From the NCBI GenBank assembly GCA_017432825.1, contig JAFRIJ010000008.1:1-48389 (forward strand): a DNA stretch of 48,389 nt, read 5' to 3'. Origin of the DNA: Bacilli bacterium (GTDB taxonomy: Bacteria; Bacillota_I; Bacilli_A; RF39; UBA660). Positions 1 to 11,733 of the stretch are shown here, piece by piece. Within the stretch, counting starts at the first letter, position 1; every line of letters starts with the position of its first letter. Made by a program: the position numbers and the translations under genes. The notes under the pieces were generated by a model, which ran no database searches, was not told the DNA's origin, and saw nothing but the letters and a program-made list of their open reading frames with translations.

Positions 1-78
1 GTTCCAGTTCCAGTTCCGGTCCCGGTTCCAGAACCATTACCTCCTGTTCCTGAGCCTGTTCCTGAGCCAGAACCTCCT
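1..78 (-). repeat. Degenerate hexanucleotide repeat encoding a Gly/Thr/Ser stalk
   Basis: Near-repeats of GGAACT/GGAACC/GGCTCA (minus strand) encode alternating Gly-Thr and Gly-Ser. The tract continues past the window edge. Such short-period repeats change length easily by replication slippage. Confidence 0.75.
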
Positions 79-776
79 TTTTCTTCTTCCTCATTTTTAT
101 TTAAATTATACTTATCTTCATCGTATTCATTTGTACTACCAATTATTTTTTTTAAATCTATATCTTCTCTTCCAAAGTTTAATTTTTCATTAGCAATATC
201 AAATGTATATGCTGAAGTTTTTAATACTGTTGGTTTTATTGTTTTAAGACTAACTTTATCATTTAGTAAAGTTGCGTTTCCTGATTTATCTAGATTTACT
301 ATTAAGTAATTGGTTGTTACTAATGATGAATTTGTTGATTCAATTGTTCTATCTATTATTAAATATTTTCTATCTGCTAATTTATAGAATTTAGAGTTAA
401 CTGAACTTTTGATTTTATTTTCATCTTTAATTACTTTTACTTTACCATCATTTTTAACTTCATAAAATTTTCCATATAAAGTTATATCTCCATTATTTGT
501 ATTATAAACAACTGAATGATTACCTAGATTATAATTTTCGTTATCATATTTTAGATAATAATTTCCTGCCCATTTCATTTTTATTGTTGATTCTTTAGTT
601 GTTGTAATCATTTTTTTGTCATCATCAAATAATATTGAACCTATATTTACTTCATATGCTGTTTTTGCTACATCAATTGATCTTTTTAAGAATAGAGAAA
701 ATATAATAATAAATACGATAAATAATCCTACTATTATTAATATTGTTCTCTTTGTTTTACTATTATATTTTCTCAT
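1..776 (-). CDS. N-terminal part of a second giant membrane-anchored surface protein (runs off window)
   Basis: An open frame starts at ATG 776 behind a strong AGGAGG site and has no stop before the window edge; 258 codons are visible. Residues 11-30 form one hydrophobic segment after a basic start (MRKYNSKTKR), so the protein is probably held in the membrane with the rest outside. Residues 40-215 form a beta-rich domain that aligns by eye with residues 40-235 of the 1969-aa protein encoded just upstream; for example DRKYLIIDRTI here matches SDNKYIIAGNNL there. Residues 233-258 are a Gly/Ser/Thr stalk made of GSGT and GTGT units. The preceding gene's stop is only 14 bases away, so the two are co-transcribed. 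By analogy the missing part probably carries repeated beta-sandwich modules, but that is inference. No known function is recognised. Confidence 0.8.
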   Translation of the reverse strand, partial: MRKYNSKTKRTILIIVGLFIVFIIIFSLFLKRSIDVAKTAYEVNIGSILFDDDKKMITTTKESTIKMKWAGNYYLKYDNENYNLGNHSVVYNTNNGDITLYGKFYEVKNDGKVKVIKDENKIKSSVNSKFYKLADRKYLIIDRTIESTNSSLVTTNYLIVNLDKSGNATLLNDKVSLKTIKPTVLKTSAYTFDIANEKLNFGREDIDLKKIIGSTNEYDEDKYNLNKNEEEEKGGSGSGTGSGTGGNGSGTGTGTGTG

Positions 777-790
777 TTAAATTCCTCCTA

Positions 791-3700
791 TTATAAATTC
801 AAAATTGTTGTAAATTTATCGTTTCCAGTATTTTGGTCTGTTAGTGGCCAATAACATTTTTCTATTTCTCTATTGTATACTACAATATCTGGATTTACTC
901 TACATTGTTTGTTTTCTCCAATTGTTAGGTATTCTCTTTGTTCTCCTGCTCTAGGATTTTTTTGTTTGTCATATATATCATCTTTATACATCATATACCA
1001 ATATTCAGTCATTATAAAGTATGTATTTCCTGCTTTTAGTGTAAATGATTCATCTGATGATTCTGATAAATCTATTGATAATTTAGGTGTTTTATCACTT
1101 GATATTGTAAATATATTTGTAATATCTCCTGCTATTTCAAATGATCCTGTAGCATTACTGCTACCACTTTTTAATGATATAGTATATTTTACTTTTTTGA
1201 TATTATTTGTCATGTTATATGCACCGTTATATGTTAATGTAAGTCTTTTATTATTATTTTGGGTAGCTGTTATTGTACCTAAAGTAATACCTACATCTAT
1301 TGGTGTATAGATAAAGTCAGTAAATGGAGTTGTTGCTACTTTTTCACTCTCACTATATCCTACATTATTTCTATATGTTTCATAGCTTAATTCAACATAA
1401 TATAATGCATTAGCGTCCAAGCCAGTAAATGTAATTGTTTTATTTTCTGTTGATGCACTAACGTTTGATCTAGTGTTTACAACTTCATTTTTGGAGTTCT
1501 TTAATTTTATTGTATAAGTTCCATATTTAATTGCATAACTATTATCTATAATTACTGGTTTAAACTCAATATAATATTCTACTGAATTTTGATTTGCACT
1601 TGAATCACATACAGGTGCTCTTGGGCTTCCATCATCGTATAATGTATTACCTTCCTCATCTTTTACTGTTATACATCTTGTTCCAGATTCTAAGTCTTTT
1701 ATGCTAACTGATGGAGATTTTAATTCATTTACCTCAGTAGTATATTTTACTCTTGTTATAGGATCAGAAGATGCATTCTGGGTAGATAGATTATCTATCT
1801 GGCTAATTATTATTTTATCTTCTTCTTTATATGTTCCATTTGTATAAGGAACAGCATAAATAATAAGCTTGTATGCTCCTTCTCCAAATATAAAATTATT
1901 ATTTGAGAAATAATATTTTATTGTTTGAGCATGTATATCTTCCAATTTCTCCTTTGGTATTTGAATATAACAATTTTTTACATAGCTTTCGTTTTCTATT
2001 CCTTCTACGTTTTTATTACAACTAGTTCCGGCTGTCCCATCAAATTTTATTGGGTTATCCTCTTGGTCGTATAATTCAAATCTTATTTTTAAGTTTTCTT
2101 GGCTTTCTTTTATTGGATTACCATTTTTATTTGCGAATCTTAATGTCCACGATAATTCTTTCTTAGATGCTTCACCATCGTATGCAATTGGTTTTACTTT
2201 AAAATCATATGATGATATTATTTCAGAAGGCCCTAGTGTTTTACTTTCGTATGTTTTTACTATATATCCATTTTTTGAATCCATGTCGTATAGTTTTGTT
2301 AATACGCCATCAACATATGCAGATACTGTTACATAGTATGTAGTATTTGGTTTTAAATTCTTTAATTCTACTTGTTCTGATTCTGCTGTATTGTTTGTTA
2401 TTGTAATATTGCTTGTTAGTGTTGATAAGTGATTTTCATTTGTTAATTCTTTATCACTATATACATCTATATAGAAAACATTATGTTCTTGTCCTGATTT
2501 AATAAATTGTCCATATACACCTGTTGAATTTACTTTGATTTTTAGGCTATTTATTGTATTATTACTAACTATTGATACTTTTGGAGTTATACTATTAAAT
2601 CTGTAGCTATAGTCATTTGCTTTTAATGTTGCTGTTTTTACTACGTTACTGTTATATAGCATATAATCTTTGTTATCATTTCTTAATACTACACCTGAAT
2701 TATTGTATGTTACTTGAAATGTTAATCCCATTGACTGATCTATATCATATATATCAGCGCCACCTAATTTATCGTAGTTATTTGTTCCTTTTAGGTAATT
2801 ATATAATGATAATTTGTCGCTATCTTTTTCAAACTCGTTTTTTAATTTATATATTCCGTTTAATTTTTCTTCTTCTTTAGAAATAGCGTTTGTACCAGGA
2901 GCATTATATATATTTAGGTACTTAGATCCATTATATAAAACCATGCCATTTGGAAATCTTTGATTAAATCCTACTAATCCACTATTAAAGTAACTTTCTA
3001 CTGATATTGTTAAATCATGCTTCATATATTCATGTATTTTAGCATAATCTAATGAAATATATTTAACTTCTTTTTTGATTGGATTACCTTCATCATCTAA
3101 TTCTCCTGTTTCAATATTTTCTGTAACTAGATTAGATGCTAAAAATAGTTTGCTATAATCTTCTAAACTTCCACTATTTTCTTTGATTGTTAATTTATAT
3201 ACTGCTGCTCTATTTGTAATATCATTATCTAGTATTTTTATCTTTAATGTATTATCATTATCATTAACTATTTGATATGCATTTTGATTATCATATTCAT
3301 ATTCTTTTTCAAAATTATACTTTGAAATTTCTTTATATGATTCTCTATTATCCACACTTTTTTCTCTAAAGAAAATACTATATTCTTTTCTTTCAGATAT
3401 AGGCAATGTAACATCATGAAATTCTCCATCGATAGTTATGTCTTCTTCTGTATGATTTTTTTCCTGTTCTTTGTATGCGTAATATATTTTTTTATCATAT
3501 AATGATTTGTCAATATCAGTTATTTTTAATCTATATGTTATACTATCAGCTGTACTTGTAGATATGTATTGGCTGTATATTGCGCTTTGTTTTTTAATAG
3601 TTATTTTTTCACTTAATTTGTCATTTCTATATACTGGATTATCTCCTTTTTCTGTTGTAAATTTTAATTCGTAGCTAATTGTGTAATTATATCCTCTAGT

Positions 3701-6700
3701 AAAATAGTTTTCTCCATCATCTAATTCCGTAGGGTCTAAATATACTGTTTGAGATTTTGGCTGATACTTATTTCCCATATCTATACTAATTCTTTTATTT
3801 TCCTTGTTTGTTGTATTATTATATATGATATAGTCAACTATTACCTTTTCATATTTAAATGCAGAATCAACATAGGTATCTGTTAAATTATTTTCTATTA
3901 TTATACCAACTATTGTGTCATCATTTAATAATTCTAAATCATTGTCTTTTCCTTTTAATTCATTATATTCTTCTTCTGTTAATGATTTCTTTTTTATTGG
4001 AGTTACTGTTATATATTTAGAAGTTGTATTTGTATTTATTCTTACATCTAGGTAATATGATGGGGTTAATTTAAATGTGTAAATATTATCTTCAACAAAT
4101 ATTTCGTTTACTCCTGCTGAATCCATTACATCTACTACTTCAACTGTATACGTACTATTTAATGTTCCTGTTTGATTATTTGTTAAAGTAACTAATTTAT
4201 CTACTGTATTTATTAATCCTGTTGCTTCATTTGAAAACAACTTGTTGGTAATTGTAAAATTATTGAAGAAGTCTTGTATGTCATTTCTATTTTCCATTTT
4301 ATATGTTCCAATTAATTTGTTTTCAACATTGTAACTTCCACTATATAGATTAAATGTTATGCTAGATATTTCTTCACTAATTGTAGAATCTTTAGGTGCT
4401 TCTAGTTTCGCATCAAATGTTACTACTGGTGCAGTCCTTATATTATCGTTTCCTTCTTCTTTGCCACTTTCGTTATCTTTTATAATTTTAAATTTTAAAT
4501 TTTCACTAACATCTGTCTTAACATAGATTATGTCACCTATTTGTACGTTTTTATGTTCATTATTATCGTCATCAATATAATTACCATATAATTTAACTGT
4601 ATAAGTTGTATTTGATGAAAGTCCTTCTAATGATACATTTGAAGTTAAATTTTCTGGATTAAAAGATATTTCTTTTTCTCTAGCTTCACTTTCATCTTCA
4701 CCTAGTTTGTAGTATCTAACGGTAAAATTATTCTGTTTGTTGTTACATCTTCTACCTGGTATTGGTATTGAACAATTCCCATCAGTTAATTTTAATGTTC
4801 CTACAACTTTATTAATTGAAGTAGATGTTGTTGTCCATGTAATACTTGGTTTACTTTTAATTAAAAAGTTAGAGCTATAGTCTGAAGATGCTTCTCTTAT
4901 CATTACATTATCATTATACAATGCTACTACTTTGCATCTATAATCAACACCAGTTCTTAGTTCTTCTATTTCATTTAAATTTAATATTAAATCATCTCTA
5001 TCATTTTTATTTATCGTATACACTGGTTCTGGTTCAGGATTATCTATTGTTATATCTTCTGCTTTATAAATATTATATTTAAACGAAATTATTCCTTTAT
5101 CAGGATCTTCAATATTATTTACCCTAATTGTAAATTTTATTTCTTCCGCATTTGGTGTAACCTGTATATCGGAAAGTATTGGTGTTTGTTTTAATGTAGT
5201 ATCAATTCTATTTATTGTATATACATCAGTATATTCTACATTTCTTATCCATATTGATTCAACTTTAGCTGAATAGTTACTGTTTGACAATAGATTATTA
5301 AATTCACGTGTTTTAGAAATATCGTCTGCCGATATTATTACATCTTCATTTCCTTCTTTTATTCCACCACTATTGTATAAAACTAATTTGGCTTTAGTTA
5401 CTTCTGAATTTTCATTAAATTTTATTGAATATGCTAAACTACTTGATGTTGCATATTCTTTTTCTAATACAATTCCTAAATCATTTGTTTTAAATGTCTT
5501 TTGAAAGTATTGTTTTTCGCTTCCAACGTTTGTTTCTGTTATTGTTAATGTATACTCGCTATCTGGAAGAAGTGATTCTTTAGATACTGTAAATGTACCA
5601 TTTCTTGCATCTATTTCTTTTTCTAGTTCTCTTTTATTATTATTTACATTTGTCAATGTTGCAACTAATTTTCCTTTAATTGCTGATGCATTATTAAGTT
5701 GAAATGATAAATCAATATCTGTTGATGTAACATTTGCTTCAATTAATTCAATTTGTGCTGCGCTATCGGCTTTTCCATTTCCGCCATTTCCACCATTAGA
5801 ATTGTTGTCTTCTCCTTGTCCTCCGCCGTTTTGATTGTTATCATTACCTGAATTGTTATTTGAATCTGAATTGTTATTAGGATTAATTATTTCATTTCCA
5901 TCGTTTCCACCATCGCCATCTCCGCCCGATCCAGAAGAATCATTATCTTTTTTTTCTGGTGTTTCTATGTCAATATTTTCATCACCATTTATCGTTAACT
6001 GTGACATTAACATTTTTGCTTCGCCGTTATGGAATATTTTTCCAGTTCCTAAATCAATTACTGTGTCATTTCCTACAGATATTGTTGTATCTTGTGCTGT
6101 TACTTGATAGCTTGATTCTTTGTTATCTATTTTTACTATTCCATTCTCAATAAATAATACTTCAAAATAATCCCCTGTTATTTTTTCTGTCTTGTTTGGT
6201 ATTTTAAGTGATAAGTTATTGCCAGCAATTATATACTTATTATCACTAATTCTTCCAATAAATGATTCTATATTTACTGTTCCTTTATTACTATTTACTA
6301 CGTAATTCTTATTCTTATACGTAATTATGTCATCATTATCTACATTATAATAATTTAAAGCAGATGAATTTATCTCTCCTAAATTTAGTAGAGCTCCTCT
6401 TGTTAAAAAGCTTATTGATCCATTTTGATAGTGTACAAAATTTTCTGATGATACAGTTACGGATTTTGAATCACTATCTTTAAATGTTATATCTTTATCA
6501 ACATTTTCTTTATATTTTGTATTAGGTGAAAAATAATATTTACTATTTTTCTTAGTAGTTGTTGAAATTATGTATCCTTCACTCTCAAATACTTTAGAAT
6601 TATCTTGATACATTACTATAGCACCTGCTATTAATAATCCCAATGTTAAAACACTTATAATTATAATAAATGCAAATTTATTTTTAATAAAATTGAACAT
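791..6700 (-). CDS. Giant (1969 aa) N-terminally anchored surface protein with fibronectin-III-like array
   Basis: A short basic N-terminus is followed by one membrane segment (residues 9-30). A beta-rich domain (about 40-240) is shared with the next gene downstream. An Asp/Asn/Gly-rich stalk (249-312) follows, and then about 1650 residues of repeated modules. These repeatedly show the Leu-x-x-x-Thr/Ser-x-Tyr-x-Val pattern of the last strands of fibronectin type III domains, near residues 375, 468, 580, 692, 1445, 1758 and 1885 (for example LSSNTTYTVKLYG, LKPNTTYYVTVSA). The C-terminus has no LPXTG sorting signal and no second membrane span, so the N-terminal segment looks like the only anchor. 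The gene has its own consensus promoter and is separated by a terminator from murG-murB-divIB. Adhesion, wall spanning or a scaffold role are all possible; no specific function is recognised. Confidence 0.85.
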   Translation of the reverse strand: MFNFIKNKFAFIIIISVLTLGLLIAGAIVMYQDNSKVFESEGYIISTTTKKNSKYYFSPNTKYKENVDKDITFKDSDSKSVTVSSENFVHYQNGSISFLTRGALLNLGEINSSALNYYNVDNDDIITYKNKNYVVNSNKGTVNIESFIGRISDNKYIIAGNNLSLKIPNKTEKITGDYFEVLFIENGIVKIDNKESSYQVTAQDTTISVGNDTVIDLGTGKIFHNGEAKMLMSQLTINGDENIDIETPEKKDNDSSGSGGDGDGGNDGNEIINPNNNSDSNNNSGNDNNQNGGGQGEDNNSNGGNGGNGKADSAAQIELIEANVTSTDIDLSFQLNNASAIKGKLVATLTNVNNNKRELEKEIDARNGTFTVSKESLLPDSEYTLTITETNVGSEKQYFQKTFKTNDLGIVLEKEYATSSSLAYSIKFNENSEVTKAKLVLYNSGGIKEGNEDVIISADDISKTREFNNLLSNSNYSAKVESIWIRNVEYTDVYTINRIDTTLKQTPILSDIQVTPNAEEIKFTIRVNNIEDPDKGIISFKYNIYKAEDITIDNPEPEPVYTINKNDRDDLILNLNEIEELRTGVDYRCKVVALYNDNVMIREASSDYSSNFLIKSKPSITWTTTSTSINKVVGTLKLTDGNCSIPIPGRRCNNKQNNFTVRYYKLGEDESEAREKEISFNPENLTSNVSLEGLSSNTTYTVKLYGNYIDDDNNEHKNVQIGDIIYVKTDVSENLKFKIIKDNESGKEEGNDNIRTAPVVTFDAKLEAPKDSTISEEISSITFNLYSGSYNVENKLIGTYKMENRNDIQDFFNNFTITNKLFSNEATGLINTVDKLVTLTNNQTGTLNSTYTVEVVDVMDSAGVNEIFVEDNIYTFKLTPSYYLDVRINTNTTSKYITVTPIKKKSLTEEEYNELKGKDNDLELLNDDTIVGIIIENNLTDTYVDSAFKYEKVIVDYIIYNNTTNKENKRISIDMGNKYQPKSQTVYLDPTELDDGENYFTRGYNYTISYELKFTTEKGDNPVYRNDKLSEKITIKKQSAIYSQYISTSTADSITYRLKITDIDKSLYDKKIYYAYKEQEKNHTEEDITIDGEFHDVTLPISERKEYSIFFREKSVDNRESYKEISKYNFEKEYEYDNQNAYQIVNDNDNTLKIKILDNDITNRAAVYKLTIKENSGSLEDYSKLFLASNLVTENIETGELDDEGNPIKKEVKYISLDYAKIHEYMKHDLTISVESYFNSGLVGFNQRFPNGMVLYNGSKYLNIYNAPGTNAISKEEEKLNGIYKLKNEFEKDSDKLSLYNYLKGTNNYDKLGGADIYDIDQSMGLTFQVTYNNSGVVLRNDNKDYMLYNSNVVKTATLKANDYSYRFNSITPKVSIVSNNTINSLKIKVNSTGVYGQFIKSGQEHNVFYIDVYSDKELTNENHLSTLTSNITITNNTAESEQVELKNLKPNTTYYVTVSAYVDGVLTKLYDMDSKNGYIVKTYESKTLGPSEIISSYDFKVKPIAYDGEASKKELSWTLRFANKNGNPIKESQENLKIRFELYDQEDNPIKFDGTAGTSCNKNVEGIENESYVKNCYIQIPKEKLEDIHAQTIKYYFSNNNFIFGEGAYKLIIYAVPYTNGTYKEEDKIIISQIDNLSTQNASSDPITRVKYTTEVNELKSPSVSIKDLESGTRCITVKDEEGNTLYDDGSPRAPVCDSSANQNSVEYYIEFKPVIIDNSYAIKYGTYTIKLKNSKNEVVNTRSNVSASTENKTITFTGLDANALYYVELSYETYRNNVGYSESEKVATTPFTDFIYTPIDVGITLGTITATQNNNKRLTLTYNGAYNMTNNIKKVKYTISLKSGSSNATGSFEIAGDITNIFTISSDKTPKLSIDLSESSDESFTLKAGNTYFIMTEYWYMMYKDDIYDKQKNPRAGEQREYLTIGENKQCRVNPDIVVYNREIEKCYWPLTDQNTGNDKFTTILNL

Positions 6701-6729: not shown

Positions 6730-6758
6730 ATTATATCATTCCTATAATTTATTGTCAA
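6730..6758 (-). promoter_or_regulatory. Consensus SigA promoter of the giant surface protein operon
   Basis: On the minus strand, TTGACA (6753-6758) is followed after exactly 17 bases by TATAAT (6730-6735), which also has an upstream TG (TGATATAAT). Both hexamers match consensus perfectly. Transcription would begin near 6723, leaving a leader of about 20 bases that contains the GGTGGAT ribosome site. Confidence 0.85.
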
Positions 6759-6778: not shown

Positions 6779-6809
6779 AAAAAAAATACTCATTATCTAT
6801 TTGAGTATT
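6779..6809 (-). terminator. Terminator after divIB
   Basis: The arms AATACTCA (6785-6792) and TGAGTATT (6802-6809) form a hairpin followed on the minus strand by a run of U. It abuts the divIB stop codon. Confidence 0.85.
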
Positions 6810-9570: not shown

Positions 9571-10362
9571 CTATTTAATTAAAAAGTTTAGTATAGAATT
9601 TATATCAATTTTAGAAATTAATATTATTATTGCCGACATACTTAAAAATGGTCCAAACGGGATAATATTTTCTTTATCCGAAAATAATATATAAATTGAT
9701 ATTGGAAACGCTATAAAGGTTGCTAAAAAGATTGTACATAGTGATAAAGGATATCCTATTACTAATCCAAATAAAAACATTAATTTTATATCTCCACCGC
9801 CTAATGATTCTTTTTTAAATAGTTTATCTCCAAATATTTTTAATCCATACATAGTCGCAAAAGCTCCAATTCCAGGATATACATGATTAACCATTAATTC
9901 AACTAGTCCTTCTTTATAGTCCATAAAGAATATATAGTGTATTAAATACAAGACTATTATTAATAATGTTGAAAAAACTAATACTTCATCTAGTATTATC
10001 ATATATTCTATATCACTTACTATAACAATAATCAAACTAGATACAAATATTAATGCAATTATTAAATCAAAAGATAGTTTAAAGCTATGAAAACATACTG
10101 AAAATAATGCTCCTGTTATTATTTCAACTATTAAACAACTAAGTGGTATATTAGAGTTACAATTACGACATTTTCCTTTTTGAATTATAAATGAGATTAT
10201 CGGTATATTTTCGTACCATTTTAGTTTATGATTACAATTAGTACAATGTGAACCTGGAAAGATAATTGATTCGTCATTGGATAATCTTGTCGCTACAACA
10301 TGATAAAATGACCCCATTATTGAACCTAATATAAAAAATATTATTAAAAAATAGGTTTCCAT
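9571..10362 (-). CDS. Prepilin peptidase (type IV pilus/competence, PilD/ComC family)
   Basis: This polytopic aspartic protease of 263 aa cleaves, and usually N-methylates, type IV prepilin-like proteins. It starts with the hydrophobic FLIIFFILGSIMGSFYHVV segment typical of the N-terminal methylase domain. Next come two CxxC pairs (CTNC and CRNC), which bind zinc in the family. The protease half shows the two catalytic Asp contexts, SDIEYM and GGGDIKL. It follows the pilC-like gene by 15 bases, so the two form a pair. Its likely substrate in the window is the prepilin at 15269-15874. The start is set by a GGATGTGAT site three bases upstream. Confidence 0.93.
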   Translation of the reverse strand: METYFLIIFFILGSIMGSFYHVVATRLSNDESIIFPGSHCTNCNHKLKWYENIPIISFIIQKGKCRNCNSNIPLSCLIVEIITGALFSVCFHSFKLSFDLIIALIFVSSLIIVIVSDIEYMIILDEVLVFSTLLIIVLYLIHYIFFMDYKEGLVELMVNHVYPGIGAFATMYGLKIFGDKLFKKESLGGGDIKLMFLFGLVIGYPLSLCTIFLATFIAFPISIYILFSDKENIIPFGPFLSMSAIIILISKIDINSILNFLIK

Positions 10363-10377
10363 TTTATCACATCCTTT

Positions 10378-11733
10378 TTATACTATTTCTCCATACATAC
10401 TAAACATTGGAACTATTACTGCTAGTAATACTATTCCTACTACGAATGCAAGCATGATTATCATTATTGGTTCAATTAGACTTTTTAATTGGGCAATTAG
10501 ATTTTTCTGCTCAGTATTATAATATTCTGCTACTCTTGCCATCATTGAGCCTAATCTATCTGTTCTTTCTCCTGTTACTAACATTTCATATGCTATAATT
10601 GGAAAGGCCCAATTATCTTTGAAGGCTAAAGAAACACTTTCACCATTGCTAAGATTAATTACAGCATTTTTTATTAGTAATTTATATATTTCATTGTCTG
10701 TTATTTTTCCTAATATTTCCATACTATCAGTAATAAATACATCATAGTTTATTAATGATGCAAATGTTTTAGTAAACATTATTACTTCTTTATAGATTAT
10801 TATATTTTTTACTACTGGAATATGCATTAATGTCCATTGCACCATCCTTTTAAAGGCGGTTATATTTTTATACATTATTGTTAATATTACAGCTATAGCT
10901 ATAATTACTAATATTACATATATTAGATTTGTAGCTAAGAAATCACTGAATCCTACTATAAATACTGTTATTGGTGGTAAAGAAGAACCTATTTGACTAT
11001 ACATATCTGTAAATTGTGGCACAACATATATCATTATGTAAACTAATACAACAATTGCTATTATGAATATTACACTTGGATATGTCATAGCACTTATTAT
11101 TTGTTTTCTATTTTCATATGCTGTTTTATAATAATCAGACATATCATCCAATACGCCAGTTAAATTACCTGTTAATTCAGAAGTTTTTATCATATTTATT
11201 AATAGTTTAGGAAAAATATTCCCTTGTTTGGATAGTGCTTCACTTAATGTTTCCCCACTAGTAAGTTCAAACACTAGTCTATTATATAAATTTTGATGTT
11301 GTTTCTTTTTCGATTGTCTTGCTAGTATTGATATTGATTCAACTAATGGTATACCTGCTTTTAAATAAGTCGATAGTTGTGTTAAGAAAAAACTTAAATC
11401 TTTATCACTCATTGGTTTTATCATTAATTGAGCTAAACCAAGTTTATTAAACAATTGATCTTCTTCAATAGAAATTACATCATATCCTTGACTCATTAAG
11501 AAGGAATGGACATCAACCTTTGATAAAGCATCTAATGAAGATGTTACTATCTTTCCGCTTTTTTCTCTTGCTTTATATTTATATCTTATGTTTTTAGTGT
11601 TCTTTATGGCATCTGCAGGTGTTAATTCCATAGTTTTTAGTTGCATATTAGCAGCCAATTTTTTTGAATTATCACCACTAGAACCTATTGGTTTATTTAA
11701 TGCATCTATTATTTTTTTAAATGATCCTGCCAT
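10378..11733 (-). CDS. Type IV pilus/type II secretion inner-membrane protein (PilC/GspF/ComGB family)
   Basis: In pilus machines this platform protein couples the assembly ATPase to pilin polymerisation. The 451-aa protein has a Lys-rich N-terminal extension (1-50) and a small YKYKAREKSGK-type domain (about 50-90). Two GspF repeats follow: the first contains the FFLTQLSTYLKAGIPL motif at about 125, and the second starts with FTKTFASLINYDVF. Three to four membrane segments are visible. An assembly ATPase (PilB/ComGA) would normally lie next to it but is not in the window, because the upstream neighbour is divergent. A good AAGGAGG site fixes the start. Confidence 0.93.
   Translation of the reverse strand: MAGSFKKIIDALNKPIGSSGDNSKKLAANMQLKTMELTPADAIKNTKNIRYKYKAREKSGKIVTSSLDALSKVDVHSFLMSQGYDVISIEEDQLFNKLGLAQLMIKPMSDKDLSFFLTQLSTYLKAGIPLVESISILARQSKKKQHQNLYNRLVFELTSGETLSEALSKQGNIFPKLLINMIKTSELTGNLTGVLDDMSDYYKTAYENRKQIISAMTYPSVIFIIAIVVLVYIMIYVVPQFTDMYSQIGSSLPPITVFIVGFSDFLATNLIYVILVIIAIAVILTIMYKNITAFKRMVQWTLMHIPVVKNIIIYKEVIMFTKTFASLINYDVFITDSMEILGKITDNEIYKLLIKNAVINLSNGESVSLAFKDNWAFPIIAYEMLVTGERTDRLGSMMARVAEYYNTEQKNLIAQLKSLIEPIMIIMLAFVVGIVLLAVIVPMFSMYGEIV

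Follow-up and report, generated by a model that had tools for sequence, protein, structure and literature searches.

Giant membrane-anchored surface proteins encoded with an F1-like ATPase of altered c subunit in uncultured Bacilli

The locus at the end of the contig

The window discussed here, that is, the whole stretch of DNA that was analysed, comprises 48,389 bases of contig C3 from its first base, in a metagenome assembly of 1.16 Mb and 17 contigs. Our subject is the group of genes at its very beginning. On the minus strand, divIB is followed by a gene for a giant protein, giant1 (791-6700), and then by a second gene, gene 2 (3-776), which the contig end cuts within its Gly/Thr repeat. 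Each of the two products has a basic tip, a single transmembrane (TM) helix and a domain of about 190-210 residues made almost wholly of short strands. Beyond the cut, on another contig of the same genome, lie a third gene with a related domain, gene 3, and the genes of an F1-like ATPase. The features of the window are the following.

791..6700, minus strand: giant1, an open reading frame (ORF) of 1969 amino acids with a TM helix, a beta domain, a low-complexity stalk and an FN3-like array
5966..6595, minus strand: juxtamembrane beta domain of giant1, about residues 36-245; AlphaFold2 mean predicted local distance difference test (pLDDT) 88.9; related to the domains of gene 2 and gene 3
5765..5962, minus strand: Asn/Asp/Gly-rich low-complexity stalk of giant1, about residues 247-312, read from the translation
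794..5749, minus strand: FN3-like array of giant1, about residues 318-1969, from the translation and Pfam, with four stretches recognised
3..776, minus strand: first 258 codons of gene 2, an ORF open at the window edge, the remainder being at G000:C7:2-748
111..665, minus strand: juxtamembrane beta domain of gene 2, about residues 38-222; AlphaFold2 mean pLDDT 86.0; related to the domain of giant1
3..76, minus strand: Gly/Thr/Ser repeat of gene 2, site of the assembly break, from the translation; contig C7 opens in the same type of repeat
6730..6758, minus strand: sigma-70-type promoter-like site, TTGACA-17-TATAAT with TG, a 12/12 match about 30 bases ahead of the giant1 ATG
6779..6809, minus strand: A/T-rich hairpin with a T-run, terminator-like, in the interval between divIB and the promoter, read from the sequence

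The original prediction had seen in this place a pair of giant surface proteins, strongly promoted and held in the membrane by their N-termini. The N-terminal anchoring is supported, and the basic tip, the single span and the beta-rich domain of about 190 residues are confirmed. The FN3-like array assigned to the complete protein reaches 44.3 bits in Pfam for a cut-off of 25, over the four stretches, and no LPXTG signal is visible at the C-terminus of giant1, which agrees with the sortase signal having been reported absent. The word giant suits one partner of the pair: giant1 has its 1969 residues, but the gene 2 product measures about 500 residues in relatives (about 455-560 where full-length), and the third member, that of gene 3, about 245. 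As to promotion, the promoter scan finds the promoter-like site of giant1 to be the sole 12/12 site of the first 12.3 kb, with the TG before its second hexamer that characterizes an extended -10; a strong promoter is what this sequence match suggests. A septal or wall-related role, suggested by the proximity of divIB, found no support. The terminator-like hairpin, which falls below the G+C needed by the terminator scan and was found by reading the sequence, stands in between, and the upstream neighbour of giant1 varies in other species; this role was therefore dropped.

A beta domain common to three proteins

The kinship of the two N-terminal domains, proposed from an alignment made by eye, was borne out. 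BLASTP gave no match between them, so that profiles were needed. Profile-profile comparison of the giant1 and gene 2 domains gave 81% (E 1.2e-5) with 9 and 8 sequences, and 94% (E 1.4e-7, 196 columns) with deeper profiles of 29 and 24 sequences. Without the TM helix the figure was 41% (E 2.8e-4), and the controls, 20 column-shuffled profiles and one reversed, stayed at or below 0.5%. One of the two pairs of motifs noticed by eye, DNKYIIAG and DRKYLIID, is aligned in the deeper alignment; the other, YQNGSISF and YNTNNGDI, is near register in the shallower alignment, goes out of register in the deeper one, and must be considered uncertain. The AlphaFold2 models place a TM helix at residues 8-31 of giant1 and 6-37 of gene 2, followed in each case by some 20 short strands, and the two longest strands (residues 155-184 and 137-162, respectively) are at matching places of the profile alignment.

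The domain of gene 3 compares with that of giant1 (A4 against A6) at 89% (E 2.3e-6), or 56% without the TM helix; its direct comparison with gene 2, at 4%, is below detection. In G037, a genome from a different family, the giant1 profile matches the gene 2 homologue (E 1.7e-6) and the gene 3 profile matches the giant (E 2.7e-5). A beta domain common to giant1, gene 2 and gene 3 is well supported by these comparisons. It had been presented as belonging to no described family, and indeed no named family scores above cut-off in Pfam or NCBIfam, no NCBIfam model matches giant1 or a full-length gene 2 protein, and Foldseek returned no match at E <= 0.001 for either domain model. The best matches of the VIA structural search were weak: Z 4.4 (72 residues, root-mean-square deviation (rmsd) 4.4) and Z 2.5 (59 residues, rmsd 3.3). 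The single-layer beta sheet of CPAP/TCP10, weakly listed for both models in fold searches, was not taken as kinship. In a sequence search of the PDB one domain profile met two weak chromodomain Y-like matches (E 0.005-0.01), judged to be due to chance, and the other met none. Finally, the N-domains of the second giants present in some relatives show a weak, local likeness (21-31%), and we do not claim them as members.

Beyond the first base

The sequence beyond base 1, which the original prediction asked for, was found at the start of contig C7. The final 248 codons of gene 2 (TGTGTGTG...), from the other side of the Gly/Thr repeat, open this contig, and these matching halves of a broken gene suggest that C3 and C7 adjoin. 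Gene 3 and the ATPase operon come next.

G000:C7:758-1501: gene 3, with the shared beta domain
C7, within 1480-1870: c subunit gene
C7:1861-2625: b-delta-like gene
C7:2618-4033: alpha
C7:4048-5400: beta
C7:5387-5638: epsilon-like gene
C7:5641-6183: gene for a protein of about 180 amino acids with several TM segments (4-TM)
C7:6196-6987: gamma

After gamma, this genome shows a short ORF of 73 amino acids, at the place where several genera have a protein of about 615-640 amino acids without a named domain (L076:17538-19382, L072:17534-19435, L068:17688-19610). A small Flp-like pilin is encoded after gamma, at G000:C7:7146-7358.

An ATPase with catalytic motifs and without an ion site

In several respects the enzyme resembles a canonical F1Fo ATP synthase. 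Its beta subunit passes the atpD model (476.6 bits for a cut-off of 462.85), its alpha, gamma and c subunits match Pfam families (alpha remaining under the atpA cut-off), and one group of relatives has the classical gene order c, b/delta, alpha, gamma, beta, epsilon. The models for its mycoplasma counterparts were not reached: 409.8 against 570 for beta MSC_0618, 311.7 against 520 for alpha MSC_0619, 375.3 against 850 for MMOB1670 and 386.9 against 600 for MMOB1660. Nor were those of the alternate F1F0 enzyme of the N-ATPase type (TIGR03324 alpha, 363.9 against 750.5; TIGR03305 beta, 430.7 against 752). The nearest betas in the PDB are ordinary F1 betas (392 bits), that of the Mycoplasma mobile G1-ATPase being more distant (303 bits), and in a tree the family's betas of this system make one clade, apart from eight canonical betas of the class (100/100). 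The catalytic motifs of alpha and beta are kept in nearly all copies, the few gaps corresponding to broken or variant ORFs. The length of alpha is variable: an ORF of 1416 amino acids with a very long C-terminal extension is found in G013 (L121:4888-9138), and alphas of 600-650 amino acids in L080, L084 and L086.

It is in the membrane that the enzyme departs from its canonical relatives. The c signature, with its glycine-rich TM1 and GRNPE loop, is retained by all 20 c subunits found in the family. At the position of the ion-binding carboxylate all 20 have a small or aliphatic residue, with no other acid in TM2, and the c subunit of G037 has no acid in TM2 either. Subunit a (PF00119) was found in none of 12 carriers, against 2 of 2 class controls. 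The 4-TM protein encoded beside epsilon compares with subunit a at 0.3% in profile-profile comparison, and was rejected as a candidate for that part. A limited literature search brought up no earlier description of c subunits devoid of the carboxylate, and one may exist elsewhere.

The stator gene specifies an N-terminal TM segment and a delta-like C-terminus (56%, E 1.1e-4), its b part not being recognised (2%); judged from these profiles, it looks like a b-delta fusion. The b-delta-like protein of G037 resembles FliH weakly, at a score under the cut-off; FliH is itself regarded as a relative of b plus delta. Epsilon is reduced to its N-terminal domain: the epsilon-like protein has a weak profile match to epsilon (15%, E 0.0017, others being under 0.3%), while that of G037 passes Pfam (28.3 against 27). 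In contrast to the canonical synthase, then, this system is without subunit a and without the ion-binding carboxylate of c, its b and delta are apparently fused, its epsilon is truncated, and it is always accompanied by surface-protein genes.

The surface proteins and the ATPase go together

When GTDB species genomes were scanned with the gene 2 profile, 28 loci came up. All belong to bacteria that are uncultured or known from metagenome assemblies, and their labels read Bacilli, Bacillales, Erysipelotrichaceae, Tenericutes, Firmicutes or Clostridia; gut or rumen is the source of many. The giant, of about 1740-2010 amino acids, stands immediately 5' of gene 2 in all loci with room for it (the L068 giant has FN3 at 33.7 bits in Pfam), and gene 3 comes after gene 2 or, in one group, after the ATPase genes. 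The expectation that the pair would travel together next to divIB thus held for the pair; the linkage to divIB is shallow, and the conserved neighbour is instead the downstream ATPase operon. The order of the genes of the trio (giant1, gene 2, gene 3) and of the ATPase varies between groups. The clade beta is present in 26 of the 28 genomes behind the named loci.

The association is best seen in the window's own family. Of its 386 genomes, 34 match the gene 2 profile strongly, and a beta of the clade (62-100% identity) accompanies gene 2 in 33 of these 34, against none of the 352 non-carriers, four of which hold only a canonical-like beta of 42-44%. The corresponding Fisher value, 5e-47, describes the contrast only, related genomes not being independent. 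The carriers come from some 18 of the 150 genera sampled. Whenever gene 2 and beta share a contig (20 genomes) they have the same orientation, beta lying 3.0-5.3 kb downstream. When beta was used as the query, the carriers yielded no second F1, and 28 family genomes lacking the trio yielded no F1 beta at all. An F1-type beta of any kind seems, as a matter of fact, to be missing from most of the family.

The set extends to a second family. In G037 a syntenic locus encodes a 713-amino-acid protein with an N-terminal TM segment, a 1735-amino-acid giant and an 800-amino-acid gene 2 homologue. It further comprises c, a b-delta-like gene, alpha, gamma, beta (44% identical to the query), epsilon and the multi-TM protein, as well as a second giant of at least 2883 amino acids. 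G013 encodes another large protein (L050:204-10799), between the trio and genes resembling a type IV secretion system (T4SS). It has 3531 amino acids, TM segments at both its N- and its C-terminus, and a Laminin_G_3 domain (7.8e-14). It is possibly a second giant of the same machine, and its lectin-like domain would fit glycan or matrix binding.

Other genes around the loci

The chromosomal T4SS-like clusters comprise VirB2-like, VirB6-like and PrgI-like genes, a split VirB4 and a cell-wall hydrolase. They are seen at G000:C14:23673-29000 (L047, L054), L025:11813-19001, L048, L067:12212-20655 and L075:12244-20667, and those of G013 and G024 include a VirD4/TraG-like ATPase. Repeated genes for small secreted proteins with a common start (VATLVVAIIGATFAYFSA), TasA/camelysin-like by eye, are found around trio-ATPase loci (L074:2181-4380, L076:19451-20107, L078:18863-20666, L119:9704-11554). 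In the window, genes for a prepilin peptidase and a T2SSF/ComGB-like protein (9571-11733) lie upstream of murG; together with the small Flp-like pilin on C7 and CpaB/CpaF-like genes in G002 (L045:15853-19001), they suggest that a pilus system may also exist.

Mycoplasma ATPases and other known systems

F1-type rotary ATPases serving surface proteins are known, in the literature cited here, in mycoplasmas only (PMC3369863, PMC11864180, PMC12994834). In M. mobile, the proteins Gli521 and Gli349 are believed to be driven by an F1-like ATPase of Type 2 (PMC11864180). In Mycoplasma mycoides subsp. capri, the function of the MIB-MIP system needs a Type 3 F1-like ATPase (PMC12994834). For the mycoplasma Type 3 system, co-occurrence is reported in 126 of 126 strains (PMC12994834). 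These clusters have seven genes, including one for a 12-TM protein, and no c gene (PMC3369863, PMC12994834). Beven et al. saw no F0-like subunits in them, and considered a c-derived origin of the 12-TM protein without finding evidence for it (PMC3369863). The membrane part, X0, is unrecognisable in mycoplasmas, and how the rotation of F1 becomes motion on the outside of the cell is not known there (PMC3369863, PMC11864180, PMC12994834).

The present system shares with Types 2 and 3 the grouping of alpha-, beta-, gamma- and epsilon-like genes. As with the M. mobile G1-ATPase (MMOB1610-1670), these relatives are tied to very large surface proteins and no subunit a is found; a b-delta-derived part has been proposed there as well (GliD, MMOB1620; PMC11864180). 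It differs from the M. mobile enzyme in that a true, ion-dead c and a membrane-anchored b-delta-like gene remain, in that a multi-TM protein of about 180 amino acids stands in place of one with 12 TM segments, and in that its alpha and beta fall under the MMOB1660 and MMOB1670 models. Its surface proteins are FN3 proteins with an N-terminal TM helix and a new shared domain, and its host, which is not a mycoplasma, has cell-wall genes (murG, murB, divIB). With the Type 3 'F1-like X0' ATPase and MIB-MIP it has in common an F1-like cluster beside surface-protein genes and a systematic co-occurrence; unlike them it shows no MIB or MIP relatives, its alpha and beta are under the MSC_0619 and MSC_0618 models, and it has c and b-delta-like genes and no 12-TM protein. 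The surface proteins themselves recall the FN3-rich adhesins of Gram-positive bacteria by their FN3 repeats, low-complexity linker and very large size. They differ from these adhesins by the N-terminal membrane anchor of giant1, the absence of LPXTG, the juxtamembrane beta domain and the tie to an ATPase.

A powered surface machine?

With an F1-like ATPase of ion-dead c subunit encoded past the contig end, the surface proteins are less likely to act as a passive scaffold or adhesin and more likely to belong to a powered machine at the surface. An F1 sector with a catalytic site, a ring unable to carry ions in the known way and no half-channel subunit make a motor in search of a load. The trio, in which giant1 bears an FN3-like array of some 1650 residues, provides its only conserved extracellular partners, and is the load that we propose for the rotor. 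Our analysis thus favours, if by a modest measure, the view that the window carries the first genes of a conserved locus for an F1-like ATPase and giant surface proteins. This would be a rotary motor that is driven by ATP, no longer coupled to ion transport and devoted to giant surface fibres. It would be the analogue of the Type 2 (gliding) and Type 3 (MIB-MIP) systems of mycoplasmas, though distinct from them in its membrane sector and lineage.

In the mechanism that we imagine, the proteins of giant1, gene 2 and gene 3 would be anchored by their N-terminal TM helices, with the beta domain just outside the membrane, and those of giant1 and gene 2 would expose FN3-like extracellular parts. 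Hydrolysis of ATP would turn gamma, epsilon and the c ring, no ions being moved. The c ring, the multi-TM protein, or both, would then transmit the torque across the membrane, and the trio would receive it at its TM helices and juxtamembrane beta domains, all within a single assembled complex; the long fibres would thereby be moved, tensed or reset. The output might be attachment to and release from surfaces, or gliding, as thought for the G1-ATPase with Gli521 and Gli349, or else the resetting of a capture device, as proposed for MIB-MIP.

Several observations weigh against this explanation. The link between the trio and the ATPase is a genomic association, and an ion site of unrecognised kind in the c ring is conceivable. 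The junction of C3 and C7 is not joined by reads; the genomes are metagenome assemblies, mutually related, so that counts are not independent. One carrier, G002, shows no ATPase in the search with beta; on the contig that bears its trio, a whole 19-kb stretch (G002:C2:48001-67000, L046) reads N, and the ATPase may sit there. The ATPase is present but apart from the trio in G001, G005, G006 and a group of the named loci, and in some genomes a T4SS-like cluster adjoins the trio in its stead.

Other explanations must be weighed. The same ATPase-surface machine could serve to capture a ligand, process it and let it go, in the way that MIB-MIP handles antibodies, the motor only resetting the binding complex. 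The need of MIB-MIP for its Type 3 ATPase and the lectin-like domain of the second giant of G013 point this way, but in none of the trio does Pfam recognise a protease domain or one that binds immunoglobulin, and the surface proteins are long FN3-type fibres; we consider it rather unlikely. Alternatively, a decayed ATP synthase would have been kept for some other reason, regulated hydrolysis of ATP for example, next to passive adhesins or wall-spanning fibres inherited alongside. That beta still passes the atpD model, and that trio and ATPase separate in some genomes, would be accounted for. Yet the co-occurrence (33 of 34 against 0 of 352) over 18 genera survives rearrangements of gene order and is found again in a second family, and decay would not look like this, with the catalytic site kept and the ion site gone in every case. 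This is, in our opinion, simply unlikely.

A third possibility is that ions are moved after all, by a non-canonical site and another route, the multi-TM protein replacing subunit a and the surface proteins capping or regulating the pump. This protein is always encoded beside epsilon, the c ring is there, and carriers have no other F1 beta of this kind; against these points stand the 21 c subunits without an acid in TM2, the lack of likeness between the multi-TM protein and subunit a, and the absence of the latter from the 12 carriers, which leave the proposal improbable. Finally, the trio might be the surface part of the T4SS-like apparatus, since it adjoins VirB2/VirB6/VirB4-like genes in G002, G005, L067 and L075 and a VirB4-like gene exists in 9 of 9 trio genomes tested, but this is very improbable and was dropped as the leading explanation, as the T4SS-like genes of the window's own genome lie inside another contig (C14), away from the trio, and the ATPase is the neighbour in most genera with room for it.

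What a motor of this kind would mean

Returning to the rotary motor with giant fibres as its load, we would go further only tentatively, with slightly less than even confidence. It may constitute a third class of rotary ATPase put to a new use, this time not in mycoplasmas but in bacteria that have cell-wall genes, where F1 would turn an ion-dead c ring and so drive giant fibres anchored by their N-termini. As far as sequences can tell, the membrane rotor is here a recognisable c subunit minus exactly the residue needed for ion transport, with subunit a gone and the catalytic motifs kept. If our explanation is true, the system would be a testable intermediate between ATP synthase and mechanical motor, and its retained c ring and b-delta-like stator could show how the former becomes a mechanical motor at the cell surface. 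Giant surface proteins that form a family in uncultured gut Bacilli would also acquire a powered role.

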